A stretch of 64,000 nt of DNA from Flexilinea flocculi (GTDB lineage Bacteria; Chloroflexota; Anaerolineae; Anaerolineales; Anaerolineaceae). The DNA lies in assembly GCF_001192795.1 (NCBI RefSeq), contig NZ_DF968181.1:1416974-1480973 (forward strand), given 5' to 3'. The notes under the pieces are model-generated. The model made no database searches, was not told the origin of the DNA, and saw nothing but the letters and a program-made list of their open reading frames with translations. Shown here piece after piece: positions 189 through 63,115 of this stretch; the first letter of the stretch is position 1, and each line of letters begins with the position of its first letter. A program made the translations under genes and the position numbers.

Positions 189-1279
189 TTTTTCTCCAAA
201 CTGACAATATTTCCAATCCCGTTGACTTCAATTGCATAGACATCATCAAGGTTAAATGTTTGATATTCATCAATCGTTGCCGGATTGTACACGTAATTTT
301 TTCCTGTATCATCCTGGAATGATACTGTATAAGATACCTGCTCAGCCCCCTTTTTTTGGTTGGATCCAAGACTTAACAATGGCATCCTTGGATTGCTGTC
401 TTGTCCAGTCGCAGTTTTTACACTGATAACACCCCAATCAAGATATGTGTACGTGCATTTGTCATCATATATGATATAAAAACAATCCTGTACTTTTTCG
501 CTGTATCCATTTCCACGATCAACCAGATATGGTTGACCGCATTCTTCCACAGACCCGGGGACATAACTTTCGGATTTTTCTCGGATCTCTTTTGAGCAAT
601 TCTCAATCGTGCTATTCGATGGGATTTCATCATACCAGTCTTCTGCTGTCTTATTGACCAGACCGAGAATTTCAATCTGTGTCTTCCATTCTGTATTTGT
701 TACCACAGCGGTTGTCTGATCTGTCTTCAGGAATGCAAAATAAATAGCAGCAAAGCCCAATATCAGCAGAATGATTCCGGCAATCAGACAGCCGCCGGAA
801 CCGAGGAATCCTTTTCTTCCGCTTTGTCCTGTTGCTGTCGGGACATTATTCGAAGGGGGTACGTATGAGGTTTTTAAAGGAGAGCCACAGGAAGTGCAAG
901 CCAGTAGATTCATTGGATTTTCTGTGCCGCAAACTTCGCAGCGGATTGTATCCGTAACAGGCGCTTCCTGGGCTGCAAATTTATCTCCTGCTTCTCTTGC
1001 CTTGCCCTCGGAAAGCGCCGCACCGCAATTGCTGCAAGTTTTCGCATTTCCCGGATTACGATTTCCACAATATGCACAATATATATCCGGGCCAGCTTTT
1101 GCCTCTTCAATTGCTTTTAGATCCTGAATAAGTTCTTCTTTGATCGGGACCTCAAATTTTACGTCATTGGGCATAGATGCGCCGCAATTTTTACATGAGC
1201 GGCGAGCTCCCGGATTTTTTGTGCCACAATTAGGACAAGTCCAAACCATCTGTACATAACCGATTGATTTTTGTGCCAT
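185..1279 (-). CDS. Multi-zinc-ribbon membrane-anchored protein
   Basis: The protein has about 364 residues. Three CxxC...CxxC zinc-ribbon modules lie in the N-terminal 140 residues (CPNCGTKNPGARRSCKNCG, CAYCGNRNPGNAKTCSNCG, CEVCGTENP...CTSCG). A single transmembrane helix follows near residues 165-190 (GGCLIAGIILLILGFAAIYF), then a C-terminal domain of about 170 residues that is probably extracytoplasmic. The start at 1279 is preferred over an upstream in-frame codon because AAAGGAAA lies just before it. Zinc-ribbon plus membrane-helix proteins of this plan are common in Gram-positive bacteria and Chloroflexota and usually lack a known function. It overlaps the next membrane gene by 4 bp. 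Confidence 0.75.
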   Translation of the reverse strand: MAQKSIGYVQMVWTCPNCGTKNPGARRSCKNCGASMPNDVKFEVPIKEELIQDLKAIEEAKAGPDIYCAYCGNRNPGNAKTCSNCGAALSEGKAREAGDKFAAQEAPVTDTIRCEVCGTENPMNLLACTSCGSPLKTSYVPPSNNVPTATGQSGRKGFLGSGGCLIAGIILLILGFAAIYFAFLKTDQTTAVVTNTEWKTQIEILGLVNKTAEDWYDEIPSNSTIENCSKEIREKSESYVPGSVEECGQPYLVDRGNGYSEKVQDCFYIIYDDKCTYTYLDWGVISVKTATGQDSNPRMPLLSLGSNQKKGAEQVSYTVSFQDDTGKNYVYNPATIDEYQTFNLDDVYAIEVNGIGNIVSLEKK

Positions 1280-1384
1280 TTCATTTCCTTTGTTGAAAAA
1301 CCTCACTGGAGGAAAATTCAGAATAATTTCGATTGACTCTCATTATCTATTATATAATGAAAATAATGGCCGACATTTCGAATC

Positions 1385-1507
1385 CAGCAATTCGAAATAT
1401 GAGGAGGAATAATTAATGTTGTATTGTTGTTACGCTTCGCGCAATAACAATACAACATCAGAACCGCTCTTTTTTCTTAAAAGGCTTTTCCAAATTTCGA
1501 ATCTCTG
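1385..1507. repeat. Intergenic inverted-end hairpin repeat, copy 1
   Basis: The copy starts CAGCAATTCGAAATATGAGG and ends with TTCCAAATTTCGAATCTCTG. Its central hairpin has 13-bp perfect arms at 1416-1428 and 1446-1458. It lies between the divergently transcribed zinc-ribbon gene and ligA, so it is not a terminator of either. The rest of the 1280-1651 gap shows no gene. Confidence 0.75.
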
Positions 1508-1639
1508 AATGATTCATTGTGAAATACTTTTTCTTATTATTCATAAAACCAGTCGAAATTTTAAGAAACAGGCGATTTTTTTCAATAGACACAACTCCCT
1601 TCAGGATCGTGTTCACAAAATTCAAGAGTCAATGATTAA

Positions 1640-3691
<2,052 letters not shown>

Positions 3692-7426: not shown

Positions 7427-7516
7427 GATCATTTTCTCCAATACATTAATATTTATTGAGAATCAATCAATAAATCCGTGCGTTACATTTTCGTCATATA
7501 CTGCGTCAAGAAGTAT

Positions 7517-7602
7517 AGCAATTCAAAATTTGAAAAAATAAATTGTTGCCGTGGCGTTTTCTATTTCTATTTGAACAGCTTGTCCATATTTCGAATAGCT
7601 GC
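7517..7602. repeat. Intergenic repeat copy 2 (short core)
   Basis: The ends AGCAATTCAAAATTTG and CATATTTCGAATAGCTGC bracket a core of about 50 bp that retains TTGTTGCCGTGG but has lost its complementary arm. It lies between the nucleotidase start and the aldolase end. The rest of the 7427-7788 gap shows no gene. Confidence 0.6.
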
Positions 7603-8961: not shown

Positions 8962-9182
8962 GATCTCCTTATTGGAATTTGACCTGATTGATCACCTATT
9001 GATCAGAATTATCCCCAAACGGATTTTGGGGTCAGGTTCAATTTTACTATTGAAAAGAGAATTTTAAGACGATCGATTTTTATTACAAATGCAAAATGTA
9101 ACGAATTGAAGCATGAAAGTGTAACACTCGGAAATTAATAATTTAGATTGAAATTTTTTTTTTATCAGGGATTGATCAAACC

Positions 9183-9494
9183 TCCAACTGTCTCGATCAA
9201 AAACAATCAAGTGGTGTACATCTGCACTTCGAGGTACGCGATCTGAATAACCAGATGTTCGATCCGACTGAGATATTTTTTATTTCGGAAGAGTCGGATG
9301 ACTATTTCTCTCGTGAGTTGTTCGCAGTTGGAGACTCTGTGATTGTGGTTGCGCCAAATGGGGCAAACTTCCGAAAACAGCTATCTTATGCTTATGAGGA
9401 TGTGATCAGCAGCGAGTTTTCTGGATTTGAGCTCAAAATCAAAGGGGAAGCCGTTGAATATGGTGTGTTCCATGGAGACCAGTCTCAAAAGTAA
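9183..9494 (+). pseudogene. C-terminal remnant of an M23 endolysin-type peptidase
   Basis: In frame upstream of the ATG at 9255 the sequence reads SGVHLHFEVRD, followed by NQMFDPTEIFF. This is the HxH metal-binding segment and C-terminal end of an M23 (LytM) peptidase. The preceding catalytic HxxxD half is absent, because the frame breaks into AT-rich DNA just upstream of about 9183. About 70 more residues follow with no recognised fold. Together with the adjacent holin-like gene this looks like a truncated phage lysis module. It is unlikely to be active. Confidence 0.65.
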
Positions 9495-9592
9495 TACACG
9501 GGTTTATGTCCGAGTATAATGTATCCGGCACAAACCTTTTCGAGAAAGCAGCCGCTGAGTGATTGGCGGATTACTGTTTAAAAGGCGATGTT

Positions 9593-10076
9593 ATGAAGAA
9601 ATGCATGCTCTTTGTTCTTATGTTTATTGTTGGGATGGTTTGTGCCGTTGCCGGTGCACTATTGGTGGACGCTCCTGTGGTTGTTAGCGGTGGTCTGGAT
9701 GATGGTGAGATCCTATCCAACGTTCTGCAACAGGTGCTGGATTATCTGGTTCCGATCCTTGTTGTGACCTTCCTGGGCTGGCTTGAAGCAATAATTCGGA
9801 AAGCACTAACTCTTCTGAAAGAGAAGGTTTTCCCAGATGTCTATGAGCTCCTCTCCAAGGTAACACTGTCCGCTGTTGAGGTTGCCGAGCAGCTGTTTGA
9901 GAAAGGCGACAATAAGGTCAAACTCATCTATGCTCAGGACTACGTTCAGCGGTGGCTGTAGCATTATTAGTTTCGCGCTTGAATTGGATTACATCCGTTG
10001 AGCAGTAGAAGCCGCTGTGAACGAGATGAAGACTACCAACTGGATGGGCGACTCTTCTGCAACAGAAGTCGAATAA
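9593..10076 (+). pseudogene. Decayed phage holin, LLH family-like
   Basis: The open part (9593-9961) has an N-terminal transmembrane helix (CMLFVLMFIVGMVCAVAGALL), a second hydrophobic stretch (VLDYLVPILVVTFLGWLEAII) and an amphipathic tail (AVEVAEQLFEKGDNKVKLIY), the plan of LLH-type holins. It hits TAG at 9959. Coding likeness resumes in another frame as LELDYIR, a TGA at 9999, then AVEAAVNEMKTTNW, ending at TAA 10074. The gene therefore carries a frameshift and at least one nonsense change. It lies next to the M23 remnant as in endolysin/holin cassettes. Confidence 0.6.
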
Positions 10077-10090
10077 ACGTTATTACAAAT

Positions 10091-10120
10091 AAAAAGCCCG
10101 TAGAGTGTGATGCTCTGCGG
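10091..10120 (-). terminator. Terminator of the small minus-strand gene cluster
   Basis: The stem CCGTAGAG / CTCTGCGG (one G-U pair) at 10098-10120 is followed on the minus strand by GGGCTTTTT. It lies just past the stop of the 63-residue gene. Confidence 0.65.
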
Positions 10121-10156
10121 ATAGTGTTGCTAATACAAAAAAAATTATATTATGTT

Positions 10157-10348
10157 TTATTCTGATGTAGATTTCCGGTTATATACTTTGCCAATAATAT
10201 CCGCAAATGTATACATTTCGAGCCTTCGATTATTCAACGCTTCCTCAAGTGTCATTCCCTTATAAACTCTCTCAACGTCGGCTGGCTCCCAGACGTCTCC
10301 GAATGCTTCCATTTCTTCTATGAACGTATTGATCTCAACCTTATTCAT
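10157..10348 (-). CDS. Small hypothetical protein
   Basis: This 63-residue acidic protein is predicted mostly helical (EINTFIEEMEAFGDVW, LEEALNNRRLEMYTFADIIG). No domain is recognised with certainty. Its start lies 8 bp after the stop of the upstream zinc-ribbon gene, so they probably share a transcript, and a terminator follows. It is part of the accessory island beside the tmRNA gene. Confidence 0.55.
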   Translation of the reverse strand: MNKVEINTFIEEMEAFGDVWEPADVERVYKGMTLEEALNNRRLEMYTFADIIGKVYNRKSTSE

Positions 10349-10356
10349 CGGGCACC

Positions 10357-10677
10357 CTATCTCTTACTCCAGATGCTTGCTTTCCCGTTTTTTCCGTCAA
10401 AATCATGAACCTCTCTGGTCTTTGTAAAGCGAATTTTTTCTGTTGTTCCATCTTCATATTCTTTTTCAAATACATATCCCTTACTACCCTCCTCGGGGAT
10501 TATATTATTCTCTGAAACATCGTTTAGTGTCCCGCATTCAGAACATGTCCAAACACCACTTTCCGTTGTGAAACCAGGCTGAGTATTCATCAACGAATTA
10601 CATCCATCACAACGCCAGTTGCAGCCACCATCCATAATTGAACCAAGTAAACCTAAAGCTGAATCAAGTAAACCCAT
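10357..10677 (-). CDS. Small zinc-ribbon protein
   Basis: This protein of about 106 residues begins with a short amphipathic stretch (GLLDSALGLLGSIMDGG). A four-cysteine zinc ribbon follows (CNWRCDGCNSLMN, then WTCSECGTLND) and then a beta-rich acidic C-terminus. The start at 10677 is chosen over 10710 because AGGAGG lies 6 bases upstream. The function is unknown. It sits in a small minus-strand operon-like run with the 63-residue gene downstream and the frameshifted HTH gene upstream. Confidence 0.6.
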   Translation of the reverse strand: MGLLDSALGLLGSIMDGGCNWRCDGCNSLMNTQPGFTTESGVWTCSECGTLNDVSENNIIPEEGSKGYVFEKEYEDGTTEKIRFTKTREVHDFDGKNGKASIWSKR

Positions 10678-10729
10678 TACTGCCTCCTCTTTTTCTATCC
10701 AATCGAACAATTAACTACTACAGATACTC

Positions 10730-11208
10730 TTAGTGAATCAAGTTTTCTTCGACTTGACACGATAACCCAGCAATTATTCGTTGGGACTCACTAATTCGTT
10801 GTTCTTCCTCCTGTATTTCCTTTGTTATTTGATCAACGGTTTCTTTTTTTAATTTGATGGACGTTTCACGCGAGACAATGTCAGCCTTAAGAAGTTTGAT
10901 GATCTGATCTTCAGACATTTGTGCTTTTTTTATATTCTTTTCGTCAACATAGTTTTGAACGAATAACTTCCCAAGCACGATAGCTGATGCTGTAGCTGCA
11001 CTAGCAATTAATGAGGTCGCGCCGTTAGTATATTTCATATACCTATATGACGCACATAGAAAATCTATCAACGCTTGTTCAGATACGATATTGCCATTTT
11101 TCCTCGATTTTTCTCAGCAATAAGCTTATCAGCCCTGATCCAACGTCGAACTGTTTCCTCATTGGTTTTTGGCATTTCCGCTACCTGTCTCACCGTAAAC
11201 GAACCCAT
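10730..11208 (-). pseudogene. Frameshifted HTH/coiled-coil protein
   Basis: From ATG 11208 the frame encodes a MerR/excisionase-type helix-turn-helix (FTVRQVAEMPKTNEETVRRW, then RADKLIAEKNRGK) and stops at about 11071. One extra A in the A5 run at 11097-11101 would join it to the downstream frame (VSEQALIDFLCASYRYMKY, then a hydrophobic stretch and a long coiled coil ending at 10730). The combined protein would be about 159 residues: DNA-binding head, possible membrane segment and coiled coil. It is either a genuine inactivating frameshift, a sequencing error, or slippage. The downstream piece alone has only a TTG start. Confidence 0.55.
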
Positions 11209-11234
11209 CTATTGATTTCATCCTTCCTGCTTTT

Positions 11235-11263
11235 ATAATATCACATTAATGTAGTAATAACAA
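11235..11263 (-). promoter_or_regulatory. Promoter with palindromic spacer upstream of the HTH gene
   Basis: On the minus strand TTGTTA (-35) and TATTAT (-10) are separated by exactly 17 bp, ending about 27 bp before the HTH gene start. The spacer contains the perfect 10-bp palindrome ACATTAATGT (11243-11252), placed where a repressor would block RNA polymerase. Autoregulation by the HTH protein is inferred. Confidence 0.5.
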
Positions 11264-11738
11264 GTTGTTTGTAGTATAAATTGTTGTAATAAAAAATAGC
11301 CTGAATTGAAATAGTAAATGCAACTAGGGAAGATAAAAAAATAAAAAACAGGGTGCACTTAGTCTGACAAATTAATTAGCAGAAAGGACTTCCCTCATGG
11401 GAAAAGAGGCATTCAAGATTACAAAATTGTTTTAAGATATAGAAACTGACAGCCCGGAATTTTTTTATTTGAATCAACGTTAAAAGGAACATAGACTCGA
11501 CATTTAAATTTGGTAATTATTTTTGAAATTCTTCCTGAACTTTGATGTGCAATTTCAAAATCCTGATTTTCTGGTCTTCCAGACTCGTAATTATTACACT
11601 AGAAAAGCTAAGATCTCCGATATATTTTCTCTTTTAATGCAAAGTGTTGGGGAAAATAGATTGTTGGTTTTGAATACCGTAGAGTTCCTATATTTCACTT
11701 TTCCTTAATGTTGGATATGATTAGGAAAAGTGAAATAA
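11264..11738. other. AT-rich gap, no supported gene
   Basis: About 470 bp separate the HTH promoter from the tmRNA terminator. Short open frames exist (for example 11523-11708) but none has a ribosome site or recognisable protein. The sequence is strongly AT-rich and looks like decayed accessory DNA beside the tmRNA gene. Confidence 0.5.
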
Positions 11739-11779
11739 AAAAGTACCCTCTGGGATTTTATAATCCATTGGGTACTTTT
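11739..11779 (-). terminator. Terminator of the tmRNA gene
   Basis: The 10-bp stem AAAAGTACCC / GGGTACTTTT on the minus strand is followed by a T-rich run. It begins 2 bp beyond the encoded CCA of the tmRNA. Confidence 0.85.
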
Positions 11780-11780
11780 A

Positions 11781-12183
11781 TGGTGGAGATGGCGGGAGTC
11801 GAACCCGCGTCCGAAAGAATCGACCCGCGAATATACTACGAGTGTAGTTCGTTTATTGATTTCATCTTAAGAAGGAAAAAAGAACAAAACCTCCTCAGAT
11901 TATTCACTCAGACCCGAAAGTCCTCTTTTGTATCATGCCGTGAAATCATGGACAGCATCCTGACTTTGTGACGCCCACTCTGCGATCGGTCAGGAAAACG
12001 ATGCAGGTGAACGTGACCTGAAAAGGTCATAGCGGCTCAGCCGTCAAGCTTATGCAGCGAGAGGCATTGCAGCGTAGGAAGTGCGATTATTGGCACTTAA
12101 TTTTTTGTACTGATTTTTCGAGATCGGCACCTCTCGACTCGCAATTCGGGACCAGCCTCCCCCGTCGAAACCAGGGCATCCCC
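11781..12183 (-). ncRNA. ssrA: Transfer-messenger RNA (tmRNA)
   Basis: On the minus strand the gene starts GGGGATGCCCTGGTTTCGAC and ends in a T-arm plus acceptor strand with encoded CCA. The 5' GGGGATG pairs with CATCTCC with one G-U. The tag reading frame at 12050-12094 reads ANNRTSYAAMPLAA followed by TAA, the usual ANN start and LAA end of proteolysis tags. It rescues ribosomes stalled on broken mRNAs. A TATAAT (12196-12201, minus strand) lies just upstream. The 3' end faces the phage-remnant island, and tmRNA 3' ends are common integration sites. Confidence 0.95.
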
Positions 12184-12227: not shown

Positions 12228-12329
12228 CAGCGATTCGAAATATGAAAAGAATCTTTGTTGTTGTGATGTTTTTGCGCTTTGCGCAAAAACATCACAACAA
12301 CAAGGTCTTCCTAAATTTTGAATTGCCGG
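12228..12329. repeat. Intergenic hairpin repeat, copy 3
   Basis: The ends are CAGCGATTCGAAATATG and AAATTTTGAATTGCCGG. The core is a perfect 23-bp hairpin with a TTT loop (arms 12255-12277 and 12281-12303). It lies between the divergent tmRNA and corA genes. Confidence 0.8.
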
Positions 12330-13398: not shown

Positions 13399-13434
13399 TC
13401 TGCTTACAGCTATATAAAAATATGGGAAGAATTC

Positions 13435-13487
13435 ATTATTGTTGAGATTTTTTTACACTCGACGCAAAAAAATATCTCAACAACAAT
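13435..13487. repeat. Hairpin repeat, copy 4 (core)
   Basis: The arms at 13435-13454 and 13466-13487 (ATTATTGTTGAGAT and its complement) form a near-perfect hairpin. The outer ends are degraded (GGGAAGAATTC on the left, TTTTTTTCGAAGG on the right). It lies between corA and the FAH-family gene. Confidence 0.6.
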
Positions 13488-13556
13488 TTTCTGTCTTTTT
13501 TTCGAAGGTTCAAATAGGTTTTTTGGGTATTGATATCAAATAATGAGGAGCGTGGC

Positions 13557-14350: not shown

Positions 14351-14458
14351 CAGTAATTTGAAATAAGGAAAGTATTTATGGATATGACGTTGTTATTGTA
14401 GAAAACGCAAAAACAACACAACGGCGAATAATCCTTCCTATATTTCGTATATCATTGG
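14351..14458. repeat. Intergenic repeat, copy 5 (partly decayed hairpin)
   Basis: The copy begins CAGTAATTTGAAATAAGG and ends ATATTTCGTATATCATTGG. The core keeps CGTTGTTATTG and AAAACAACACAACG, an imperfect hairpin. It lies between the FAH gene and yebC. Confidence 0.6.
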
Positions 14459-21425: not shown

Positions 21426-21480
21426 ACTCGTGTAATACCTGTCTCTATATACTACCTGTTTTTCTCAAATTTTTTTCCTG

Positions 21481-21948
21481 GAATTTCCAGATTTGAGCGT
21501 AAAAAGGGACGATTTTTCAAAAAGTGAGAAATTCAGCTATCATCCTAACGTTGACAAATTGCCATACGAGCCCATACAGTAGTGAGAATTCTGTCATTGC
21601 GAGTCCCGAAGGGACGTGGCAATCTCCCAGCCCCATTATGTAAAGAGTGCCACACGAAAAGAGATTGCTTCGCCGGGCGGCTGGCGCCCTCCTCTCAATG
21701 ACAGATCGCCGTACAAGCCCCGTTGGGGTGATATATTTCCTTGCGAGTCCCGTAATGGCGAAGCAATTCACTATCGCATTAGGGAAAGAATGCCATACGA
21801 AAAAAGATTGCTTCGTCGGGCTGGCGCCCTCCTCGCAATGACAAATTGCCATGTGTGTCCTCCTGAGTATCTCGAATTAGTTCTTTGAAATCTCCAAATT
21901 TGTGCGTAAAAAGGGACTTTTTTTCAAAAAGTGAGAAACTCAGGTATT
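21481..21948. repeat. Composite palindromic repeat block flanked by 60-bp direct repeats
   Basis: Imperfect direct repeats at 21481-21541 and 21887-21948 share GCGTAAAAAGGGAC and TTTTTCAAAAAGTGAGAAA. Between them are two tandem units of about 140-147 bp. Each carries a left palindrome half (CATTGCGAGTCCCG) and a right half (GATTGCTTCG then GGCTGGCGCCCTCCTC, CAATGACA). TGACARATYGCC recurs at 21552, 21699 and 21839. The CATTGCGAG / CTCGCAATGAC ends resemble a mobile palindromic element I recall as dispersed in many bacteria. The block lies between the LysM gene and queG, and no gene is seen in it. Confidence 0.75.
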
Positions 21949-21959
21949 AGCGTAAAACC

Positions 21960-24228: not shown

Positions 24229-24319
24229 AAAAAACCTCCATGAATCTGTGATCATTAATGTTATTGTACCAAATTATTACGCTGTCGAATTCAATAAAGT
24301 TCCAGTTGATGATGTAATT

Positions 24320-24446
24320 CAGCAACGGTTTGAAATATGAGCGGGAGTATTTGATGTTGTGTTGTTTTTGCGCGGAGCGCAAAAACAACACAACATCAAA
24401 TTTTCTCTTTTTTTCTCAAAAGGTTTTCAAAATTACGAATTAATGG
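24320..24446. repeat. Intergenic hairpin repeat, copy 8 (best-preserved hairpin)
   Basis: The ends are CAGCAACGGTTTGAAATATG and TTCAAAATTACGAATTAATGG. The core hairpin has 25-bp perfect arms (24349-24373 and 24377-24401) with a GGA loop flanked by GCGC. It lies between the FW lipoprotein start and the DUF1015 gene end. Confidence 0.85.
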
Positions 24447-24506
24447 TAATTCAGCAGTAATTTGTAATTAAGATAGAATTTTTGATAAGAGAGATAAATT
24501 CCCGTA

Positions 24507-26120: not shown

Positions 26121-26159
26121 AAAAGAGGATATCTTTTAAACTGGATATCCTCTTTTTTT
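26121..26159 (+). terminator. Terminator of tRNA-Pro
   Basis: The 13-bp stem AAAAGAGGATATC / GATATCCTCTTTT is followed by further T, beginning 2 bp after the tRNA. Confidence 0.9.
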
Positions 26160-26214
26160 CTCCCCTTTTCTTTCTCCCCTTTTCTTTCTCCCCTTTTCTT
26201 TCTCCCCTTTTCTT
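26159..26214. repeat. Tandem repeat, 14-bp unit x4
   Basis: Four perfect head-to-tail copies of TCTCCCCTTTTCTT directly follow the tRNA terminator, then a short TC dinucleotide run. The pyrimidine tract is a likely slippage-prone microsatellite. Confidence 0.9.
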
Positions 26215-26339
26215 TCTCTCTCTCTCATAAGCTATTTTAGATCAACACGAATCGATTTCAAATAAGCTGGAGCAATGTAAATAAGAATCCATGATAAAGG
26301 TAACTGAAAAAAATTTGTAAGACAACAGCGGAAATGTTA

Positions 26340-28708: not shown

Positions 28709-28754
28709 CATTATAATACGGTGCTGAACAGTAATTCGGATTATTCAGGAAATC

Positions 28755-28915
28755 GAAATTTGAAAAGGCTTTTTTGTTTATTTGAAAAGTCAATCCATAT
28801 TTCGAACAGCAGATGAAAGAAATACCACATCCGATAATGAAAATTCTATTTTCATAGGAATTGCTGGAATTATTTTCTCTTTTTTCACAAGGCGTTTTCA
28901 AATTTTGATTACTGA
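28755..28915. repeat. Composite intergenic repeat with alternative core
   Basis: The left end is ATCGAAATTTGAAAAGGC. An internal segment at 28797-28867 (CATATTTCGAACAGCAGATG to AGGAATTGCTGG) matches 3726-3802. The right end is GCGTTTTCAAATTTTGATTACTG. It looks like two family members nested or recombined. It fills the gap before the aminotransferase gene. Confidence 0.6.
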
Positions 28916-30113: not shown

Positions 30114-30169
30114 GACAACTCCAGATATAAAAAAAGAATCATTGTATTAAAAAAATCAAGCAAATAAAA

Positions 30170-30283
30170 ATTCGAAATTTGGTATGGATTATTTGTTATT
30201 AGGTTGTCATTGCATTTCGTACATTAACAACATAATAACAAGCTTTTTTTATCAAAAGAATTTTCCAAAATTCGAATTGTTGC
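30170..30283. repeat. Intergenic hairpin repeat, copy 11
   Basis: The ends are ATTCGAAATTTGG and TTTTCCAAAATTCGAATTGTTGC. The hairpin arms TTGTTATTAGGTTGT (30193-30207) and 30227-30241 pair at 14 of 15 positions. The remainder of the 30114-30478 gap is AT-rich without a gene. Confidence 0.75.
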
Positions 30284-34490: not shown

Positions 34491-34599
34491 CAGCGGTTTG
34501 AAATAAGAAAAGGAGTATTTATTGTTTGGTCGTTTTTGCGCTACCAGTAAAAACAACACGAGAATCAGTTTTCTCTTTTTATTGATTTTGAATTACCGG
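34491..34599. repeat. Intergenic hairpin repeat, copy 13
   Basis: The ends are CAGCGGTTTGAAATAAG and TGATTTTGAATTACCGG. The core GTCGTTTTTGCGC / AAAAACAAC is a shortened hairpin. It is the first of two copies in the gap between the helicase start and the DUF4349 gene; no gene is seen in that gap. Confidence 0.65.
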
Positions 34600-35941: not shown

Positions 35942-36068
35942 TCAGAAATTTGAAATATTGGGAGGATGCATCGTTGTTGTGATATTTTTGCGTATCGCGC
36001 AAAAGCCTCACAACAACGATTTTCCCCGGATTGATTCGAAATGAAAGTTGATATTTCGAATTACTGAC
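35942..36068. repeat. Intergenic hairpin repeat, copy 15
   Basis: The ends are TCAGAAATTTGAAATATTGGG and TTGATATTTCGAATTACTGAC. The hairpin has 13-bp perfect outer arms (35970-35982, 36008-36020) plus an inner TTTTGCG / CGCAAAA stem. An extra ATTCGAAATGAAAG lies inside the right part. The rest of 35755-36288 shows no gene apart from the coaBC terminator. Confidence 0.75.
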
Positions 36069-38477: not shown

Positions 38478-38598
38478 CAGCAGTTCCAAATATCGGAAGG
38501 ACTTTTGTTATTCTATTGATGCTTCACTCCACTAATCACCAATAGAATAATAATTTATTGTTTAATTCGAGTAACAAGTCATTATTTCGGTTTACTGA
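38478..38598. repeat. Intergenic hairpin repeat, copy 17
   Basis: The left end is CAGCAGTTCCAAATATCGG, and the right end, TCATTATTTCGGTTTACTGA, is degraded. The 11-bp perfect arms TTATTCTATTG (38508-38518) and CAATAGAATAA (38540-38550) form a hairpin unlike the TTGTTG type, so the core sequence has changed while pairing was kept. Confidence 0.55.
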
Positions 38599-41496: not shown

Positions 41497-41610
41497 CCAG
41501 TGATTTGAAATACGGAAAAGATTTATTATGGTCGAGCTATTTTTTTTCTTGAAACGAAAAAATAGCTCAACCATGATTTATATCTCTTCTTTAATTATTG
41601 GTATTCCCTG
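41497..41610. repeat. Intergenic hairpin repeat, copy 18
   Basis: The left end is CCAGTGATTTGAAATACGG. The core hairpin arms TATGGTCGAGCTATTTTTT and AAAAAATAGCTCAACCATG (about 41527-41546 and 41557-41575) pair with one mismatch. The right end is poorly kept. It lies between the convergent tsaD and ROK genes. Confidence 0.7.
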
Positions 41611-53052: not shown

Positions 53053-53252
53053 AGTACTTCGAAAGAAAAACTTTTTAATTAAATCAACAGGGAAAAATTT
53101 ATTGTTGCGAAATATTGGTGCGAAATGCAAAATAATCACAATAATGAAAAATAATCCTGTATTATGAATTGCTACTTTAAAGAAATCAGATTGCATTTCA
53201 TTTTTTCTTTTCAATTCGTGTGTGAATTGTCAATTGGGAATTTTTTCCCAGG

Positions 53253-53368
53253 ATTTGGGAAATGGAGATTATTAATTGTTATTGTGTTGTTTTTCCCCTT
53301 TGCGAAAAAACAACACAATAACAAAAATCTTTCTTTTTTCAGAAAGCTTTTCTAAAATTCAAATCGAT
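53253..53368. repeat. Intergenic hairpin repeat, copy 21
   Basis: The 19-bp perfect arms TTGTTATTGTGTTGTTTTT (53276-53294) and its complement (53306-53324) surround a CCCCTTTGCG loop region. The right end is TTCTAAAATTCAAATCGATG, and the left end is degraded. It lies between the HIT gene end and paralogue 3. Confidence 0.75.
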
Positions 53369-53410
53369 GATTCCCGCCACCGAAATGATGTGGGTTCTCA
53401 GAAAAAATGT

Positions 53411-63000: not shown

Positions 63001-63115
63001 GCAGTATTTCGTACTATTAGAGAGGGTTTTTGTTGTTCTTTTATATATTATGCAAAATAAAAAAAAGAACAACAAAAAATCTTCTGTTTTTCAAAGGGCT
63101 GATTTCGAACCGATG
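63001..63115. repeat. Intergenic hairpin repeat, copy 25
   Basis: The copy begins GCAGTATTTCGTACTATTAG and ends GGGCTGATTTCGAACCGATG. The 16-bp perfect arms TTTTTGTTGTTCTTTT (63027-63042) and its complement (63063-63078) surround an AT loop. It lies between bcp and citD. Confidence 0.7.

Follow-up and report, generated by a model that had tools for sequence, protein, structure and literature searches.

How can hairpins scattered along one stretch of bacterial DNA differ in the sequence of their arms while each stays complementary to itself? The question arises in the window, by which we mean the whole 64,000-nucleotide stretch analysed here, part of the 3.51-Mb, three-contig genome of an Anaerolineaceae bacterium (G000). 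Among 285 relatives of its UvrA-like protein, the best match is that of a Leptolinea MAG, at 78% identity. The initial annotation had listed seven such hairpins, and all seven are found at the coordinates and with the perfect-arm lengths that it gave (Table 1). With loops of at most 14 bases, the window holds four separate perfect inverted repeats with arms of at least 16 bases and 17 with arms of at least 11, other hairpins being among the 17. Five order-1 Markov copies of the window contained no such inverted repeats, so the seven hairpins are beyond chance. The arms had been described as clearly different in sequence; they do vary, but mostly as variants of one consensus of about 23 bp (TTGTTGTTGTGTTGTTTTTGCGC and related forms). 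One strand had likewise been called almost purely T/G, which is true of the consensus and not of every copy, as those at 38508 and 63027 have A or C. An exact pattern with the wrong arm order, CAACAACAACAA...TTGTTGTTGTTG, had no match.

The point missed by the initial annotation is that the hairpin unit is a transposon. In an alignment of the window copies, each hairpin lies at the centre of a repeat that is dispersed and largely intergenic; the element midpoint falls inside an open frame of at least 100 codons in 39/332 elements. The full element is about 123 bp long, with ends CAGCRATTCGAAATWTGG that occur as inverted pairs (terminal inverted repeats, TIRs) and a central palindrome of ~23-bp arms with a GCGC tip and a 3-base loop. 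Elements defined by their ends are mostly ~115-125 bp, too short for a transposase. Across whole genomes, the end with at most one mismatch has 286 matches in G000, 339 in G010 and 61 in G003, while the same pattern read backwards, as a control, has none. The target duplication is 9 bp: among 171 TIR pairs the flanking bases have an identity of 0.62, compared with 0.291 when partners are shuffled (z 32.1), and other lengths or offsets give z above 20 only as part of these nine bases and about 3 elsewhere.

Table 1. Positions in the window of the hairpins, the element copies that contain them, and the tmRNA gene.
Feature	Position	Strand	Details
Hairpin	24349-24401	+	25 bp perfect arms
Hairpin	12255-12303	+	23 bp perfect arms
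Hairpin	53276-53324	+	19 bp perfect arms
Hairpin	63027-63078	+	16 bp perfect; 26-nt arms, 88%
Hairpin	1416-1458	+	13 bp perfect; 20-nt arms, 90%
Hairpin	35970-36020	+	13 bp perfect; 23-nt arms, 87%
Hairpin	38508-38550	+	11 bp perfect arms
Complete MITE with 25-bp hairpin	24323-24445	+	TIR ends, 123 bp; inner pairs 16/16, loop 3; R1 98.4 bits
Left 9-bp target duplication GTAATTCAG	24314-24322	.	9/9 identical to 24446-24454
Right 9-bp target duplication GTAATTCAG	24446-24454	.	9/9 identical to 24314-24322
5' hairpin arm, T/G-rich, 25 bp perfect	24349-24373	+	
Loop GGA, 3 bases, all-purine form	24374-24376	+	
3' hairpin arm, A/C-rich	24377-24401	+	
Element copy, hairpin 1416-1458	1385-1507	+	TIR pair, 123 bp; R1 87.1 bits; duplication unrecognisable (1/9)
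Element copy, right flank shortened, hairpin 12255-12303 (23-bp perfect arms)	12228-12328	+	duplication 4/9
Element core, hairpin 13435-13487	13407-13499	+	R1 71.1 bits
Element core, hairpin decayed	14351-14440	+	R1 66.6 bits
Element copy, hairpin 30193-30241	30165-30282	+	R1 75.8 bits; TIR pair; duplication 3/9
Element core, hairpin partly decayed	34491-34580	+	R1 77.9 bits
Element copy, hairpin 35970-36020	35943-36066	+	R1 83.1 bits; duplication 6/9
Element copy, hairpin 38508-38550	38478-38597	+	R1 69.5 bits; duplication 3/9
Element core, hairpin 41525-41577, diverged arm sequence	41498-41589	+	R1 78.7 bits; arms 90%
Element core, hairpin 53276-53324	53248-53337	+	R1 79.6 bits
Element core, hairpin 63027-63078, diverged arm sequence	63002-63088	+	R1 50.9 bits
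86-bp element without complete hairpin	7516-7601	+	TIR pair; duplication 6/9
tmRNA gene	11781-12183	-	tag ANNRTSYAAMPLAA

The same ends are carried by an insertion sequence (C1) found once in G000 (L202 821-2452). It is 1,632 bp long and encodes a 446-aa transposase; its ends, CAGCAATTCGAAATATGA and CAGTAATTCGAAAAATGA, share ~17 bp with those of the short element, and a perfect duplication, GCATTCTGT, lies on both sides. Given the same ends, the 9-bp duplications and an IS that has both, the hairpins are, judged by sequence, the cores of a non-autonomous transposon (MITE), which is presumably mobilised by this IS. Its transposase may be of the DDE_Tnp_1 type (ISNCY-annotated relatives; ISAs1 was considered). 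The nearest plasmid-borne relatives are transposases on five cyanobacterial plasmids, 37-40% identical over 95% of its length, one of them annotated ISNCY; its Pfam matches (DDE_Tnp_1 and DDE_Tnp_1_assoc) are weak and both below the curated cut-off, and it has no match in NCBIfam. Among 40 relatives, including G003, G008 and G010, we found no partner IS besides one weak fragment. A search of the first stretches for TIR pairs 500-3,500 apart gave six weak matches, none convincing. In its terminal stretches the partner has these ends but lacks the T/G-rich hairpin, with only a different short inverted repeat present.

A covariance model built from 12 window copies matches at least 150 places in G000, and the count of 84 element loci in 464 kb suggests, by extrapolation, several hundred copies per genome. 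The G010 stretches and several of those from G000 were picked at known matches, so densities from them are unrepresentative. Among 14 genomes of the same genus, including G000, the model also matches G010 (at least 106), G003 (86) and G008 (4) at E <=1e-4 and has no match at that threshold in the other ten; 27 genomes of other genera gave none, and a wider draw of 121 genomes from the family returned the same four only. The best 12 distinct window copies are all on the + strand. Across 41 stretches, the orientation of oriented elements has no relation to the replication strand (29:23 where GC skew is positive, 6:8 where it is negative).

Several observations on individual copies and their surroundings can be added. 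At most 80 bp long, 51/332 elements (28 in G000, 23 in G010) keep both ends but are too short to contain the hairpin as well, an example being the 67-bp one at window 28746-28812; in several of these apparently only the outer part of one arm is left, as if the palindrome had been deleted. We sought orthologous copies in the syntenic contig of G010 (~81% in genes), which mostly has different insertions and whose intergenic regions are too diverged; at window sites 34491 and 38299 it has a copy in the opposite orientation. At one intergenic gap both genomes have a copy in the same orientation (window 53248-53370 and L181 19256-19378); the two are candidate orthologues whose outer 19 arm bases differ at three positions, always with a matching difference in the opposite arm. 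The copy at 12228-12328 lies ~45 bp upstream of the tmRNA 5' end, between the tmRNA and a CorA gene, and no open frame in the long stretch 8962-11780 of the window exceeds 132 aa. A second repeat family at 21455-21955 has GC-rich parts (TCATTGCGAGTCCC... and GGCTGGCGCCCTCCTC...CAATGACA) and is arranged in duplicated blocks, and a similar stretch lies near L165 3271-3502. Just after a tRNA-Pro and a terminator-like hairpin, at ~26157-26230, is a tandem pyrimidine-rich repeat of CTTTTCTTTCTCCC units.

Do the arms of a copy match each other more closely than common descent would make them? Because selecting on the hairpin was to be avoided, elements were picked by their two ends alone, which gave 332 in stretches totalling 864 kb (G000) and 687 kb (G010); the arm tests then used long elements that had a 3-base loop and 11/16 or more inner pairs (75/140 in G000, 90/122 in G010). 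In G000 the within-copy match is 0.922 against 0.685 between copies (n=75), and in G010 it is 0.983 against 0.807 (n=90), with 0/5,000 permutations as high in either genome. On average, the own arm even beats the best arm of any other copy (0.922 vs 0.896 in G000, 0.983 vs 0.961 in G010). The TIRs of the same copies serve as a control: they match at 0.719 within and 0.710 between copies in G000 (573/5,000 permutations as high) and at 0.754 within and 0.781 between in G010, so that neither genome shows an excess like that of the arms. Since the TIRs share the descent of the arms and show no matching, shared ancestry is not the explanation of the arm matching. The initial annotation had proposed a covariation analysis, with an absence of covariation beyond shared ancestry as the result that would speak against it. 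Covariation is present: the 12 window copies score 0.330 against 0.168 when shuffled (0/500 as high), and at most 0.088 when the partner is slid by 1-3 columns.

The arms fall into at least three subfamilies (A, B and C), common to both genomes. Changes were counted only in copies near a subfamily consensus, and one arm-change analysis used 87/89 loop-3 copies. Against the subfamily consensus we count 71 different matched changes, of which 30 occur just once. Several of the matched variants are present in both genomes. Transitions and transversions stand at 72:91 among matched changes and 131:44 among one-sided ones (p 1e-8), while changes seen once do not differ (10:20 matched, 16:29 one-sided). 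The ratio is therefore ambiguous as a discriminator of mechanism, being significant overall and absent among once-seen changes. We also considered matched indels: T-run lengths agree between arms in 85/88 loop-3 copies, but 4/4 is the consensus in subfamily C and 5/5 in A and B, so that this agreement says little.

When did the arms come to match? At insertion the two copies of a target duplication are identical, so that their later divergence serves as a rough clock. For copies with at least 6/9 duplication matches, taken without a hairpin filter, mismatches make up 107/513 (20.9%) in duplications and 116/912 (12.7%) in arms in G000 (n=57), and 64/612 (10.5%) and 35/1088 (3.2%) in G010 (n=68), where the threshold makes duplication decay look smaller than it is and scoring each element by its best hairpin is lenient on strongly decayed arms (floor ~0.62 in shuffled elements). 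The confidence interval of the difference excludes zero in both genomes. As duplications are more mismatched than the arms of the same copies, arm pairing is maintained after insertion. All 16 inner arm pairs are intact in 12/16 G010 copies and 9/32 G000 copies that have 2-3 duplication mismatches. This maintenance is incomplete, given that 64/140 long elements in G000 and 27/122 in G010 have at most 13/16 inner pairs. Matched changes per G010 copy average 1.12 where 0-4 duplication bases match (n=25), and copies with a perfect duplication (n=20) already carry 0.70, so many matched changes arose before insertion. In G000, duplication decay brings no rise in either the matched or the unmatched counts.

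The loops carry a mark of their own. They were read in flank-defined orientation in the 150/165 copies whose flank lengths told it, and 57 are RRR, 77 YYY and 16 mixed, i.e., 134 are all-purine or all-pyrimidine. The main sets are reverse complements of each other (TTC/GAA, TCC/GGA, TTT/AAA and TCT/AGA). Substitution would need three transversions to turn a purine loop into a pyrimidine one, with mixed loops as intermediates, and these are few. At two different sites in G010, insertions with different perfect 9-bp duplications differ only by one T-run base and by the loop, which reads TCC at one site and GGA at the other. When G010 copies were paired at a flank identity of at least 0.9 (63 pairs), 25 pairs showed a flip (12 with one extra substitution), in 22 the loop was unchanged or had a single substitution, and 16 fitted neither pattern, so that flips are about as common as non-flips in the closest pairs.

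What could keep arms paired and also turn loops around? We consider it probable that replication template switching between the arms homogenises them and inverts the loops, the process, its place and its time being read from the pattern. The central palindrome would be the substrate: the nascent strand may jump to the opposite arm, whether of its own strand or of the sister, copy it and jump back. One arm would thereby be rebuilt as the complement of the other, which would erase mismatches, a mutation in one arm being either matched in the other or reverted, and a jump between strands would leave the loop inverted. With arms rebuilt copy by copy, copies would diverge in arm sequence while each stays self-complementary. 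According to PMC8604942 and PMC8794818, arm homogenisation and spacer inversion are the published marks of template switching between inverted-repeat arms. The latter source sets out a proposal that template switching maintains RNA stems and names loop inversion as the strongest expected mark. Some results go against template switching here. Simple copying of point mutations would not leave matched changes short of transitions, a deficit seen overall though not among once-seen changes. Many matched changes are older than the insertion, some variants are common to both genomes, counts in G000 are flat with duplication decay, and pairing is incomplete in many long elements. We saw no parent-child switching event, the intergenic regions of the syntenic genome being too diverged for clean orthologues.

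It is tempting to read strong covariation as the trace of an RNA fold, such as a terminator, an mRNA stabiliser, an RNase III site or a small RNA, whose stem is kept by stepwise compensatory mutations, and a T-rich stretch does lie 3' of the stem in one orientation. However, with genes taken as open frames of at least 100 codons, the 72 oriented elements in tandem gaps lie 36 with and 36 against transcription. Per 10 kb, convergent gaps hold 9.5 elements, fewer than tandem (11.6) or divergent ones (15.4). Mismatches read in the transcript sense in tandem gaps are 37 G-U, 39 A-C and 40 other, and those read along the element are 61 G-T against 77 A-C. Nor are matched changes rich in transitions, unlike what the G-U route would leave, and stepwise change does not explain loop inversion. 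An RNA-level signature is thus absent in the orientation, gap-density and G-U tests, and in an Rfam scan of the window tmRNA alone reached threshold. We regard this explanation as improbable. Descent from a few source palindromes, with each copy then mutating independently, is more improbable still: it would account for subfamilies common to both genomes, but not for so many kinds of matched change, nearly half of them unique, nor for an own arm that outdoes the best arm of any other copy, and the TIRs of the same copies show no matching.

Matched changes already present in copies with perfect duplications, and matched variants recurring in both genomes, would also be expected if only copies with a paired hairpin could move, the hairpin aiding a synaptic complex or a single-stranded intermediate, and matched variants were inherited from active sources. 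Such selection during transposition leaves unexplained both the inversion of loops and the fact that target duplications have more mismatches than the arms they accompany. The partner IS, whose ends come without the T/G-rich hairpin, and the elements too short for ends plus hairpin also count against it, although the latter may have lost their hairpin after insertion. We therefore think it unlikely; selection on DNA structure is possible. The initial annotation had offered a choice between selection on folded DNA or RNA and a copying process that rebuilds one arm from the other. Loop inversion and arms that are less mismatched than duplications favour copying, and selection on RNA is unsupported.

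If template switching is at work, is the hairpin built for it? GNA triloops closed by C-G are unusually stable DNA hairpins, and 90/150 loops here are GNA or its complement TNC. As promoters of pairing they can be set aside, since the integrity of the arms does not depend on the class of loop (p 0.90 and 0.61). In the yeast inversion table of PMC8604942, all four 3-base spacers (PIM1, YPS1, YBZ1 and TAT2) are TCC/GGA or TTC/GAA, which are also the commonest loop sets in this element. A speculative reading, to which we give little weight and against which the loop-class result stands, is that the hairpin has evolved as a template-switch device, with a GC clamp and a GNA-type triloop, a palindrome that repairs itself and a loop orientation that is nearly random even in the closest copies. 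If so, such hairpins would keep a natural record of fork switching, and the occurrence of these triloops in yeast inversions would indicate a general loop rule.

More broadly, covariation alone is no proof of a functional RNA, and whether compensatory stem changes originate by selection or by template switching is an open question. In PMC8794818, a 2022 PNAS study, the strongest evidence for stem maintenance is termed circumstantial, and compensatory change with loop inversion is extremely rare in rRNA, where loops are conserved. The element described here offers many copies of one palindrome that show both marks, with no visible RNA constraint and with an insertion clock of their own, which makes switch rate, loop rule and repair dependence measurable.

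Among known repeats, the bacterial palindromic MITEs (ERIC, Correia/NEMIS and RUP) are ~100-160 bp, intergenic and palindromic, with TIRs and many copies. Our element is alike in those traits and differs in its 9-bp duplication and its ends, being set apart by description besides the Rfam scan. REP/BIME sequences are dispersed intergenic palindromes of high copy number; the likeness is in the dispersed palindromes, while the present element has 9-bp target duplications and, in common with a DDE-type IS, ends of ~17 bp. In the open-licence PMC literature we found no prior report of this element or of loop-flipping MITEs, and it is apparently new, although the template-switch mechanism is already known. 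Template switching at quasi-palindromes likewise involves complementary, perfect arms and a short spacer, with the short loop inverted in place. The cases considered here each concern one locus, in a yeast gene or an rRNA stem, whereas in this genome one palindrome can be followed over many insertions whose target duplications act as a rough clock.
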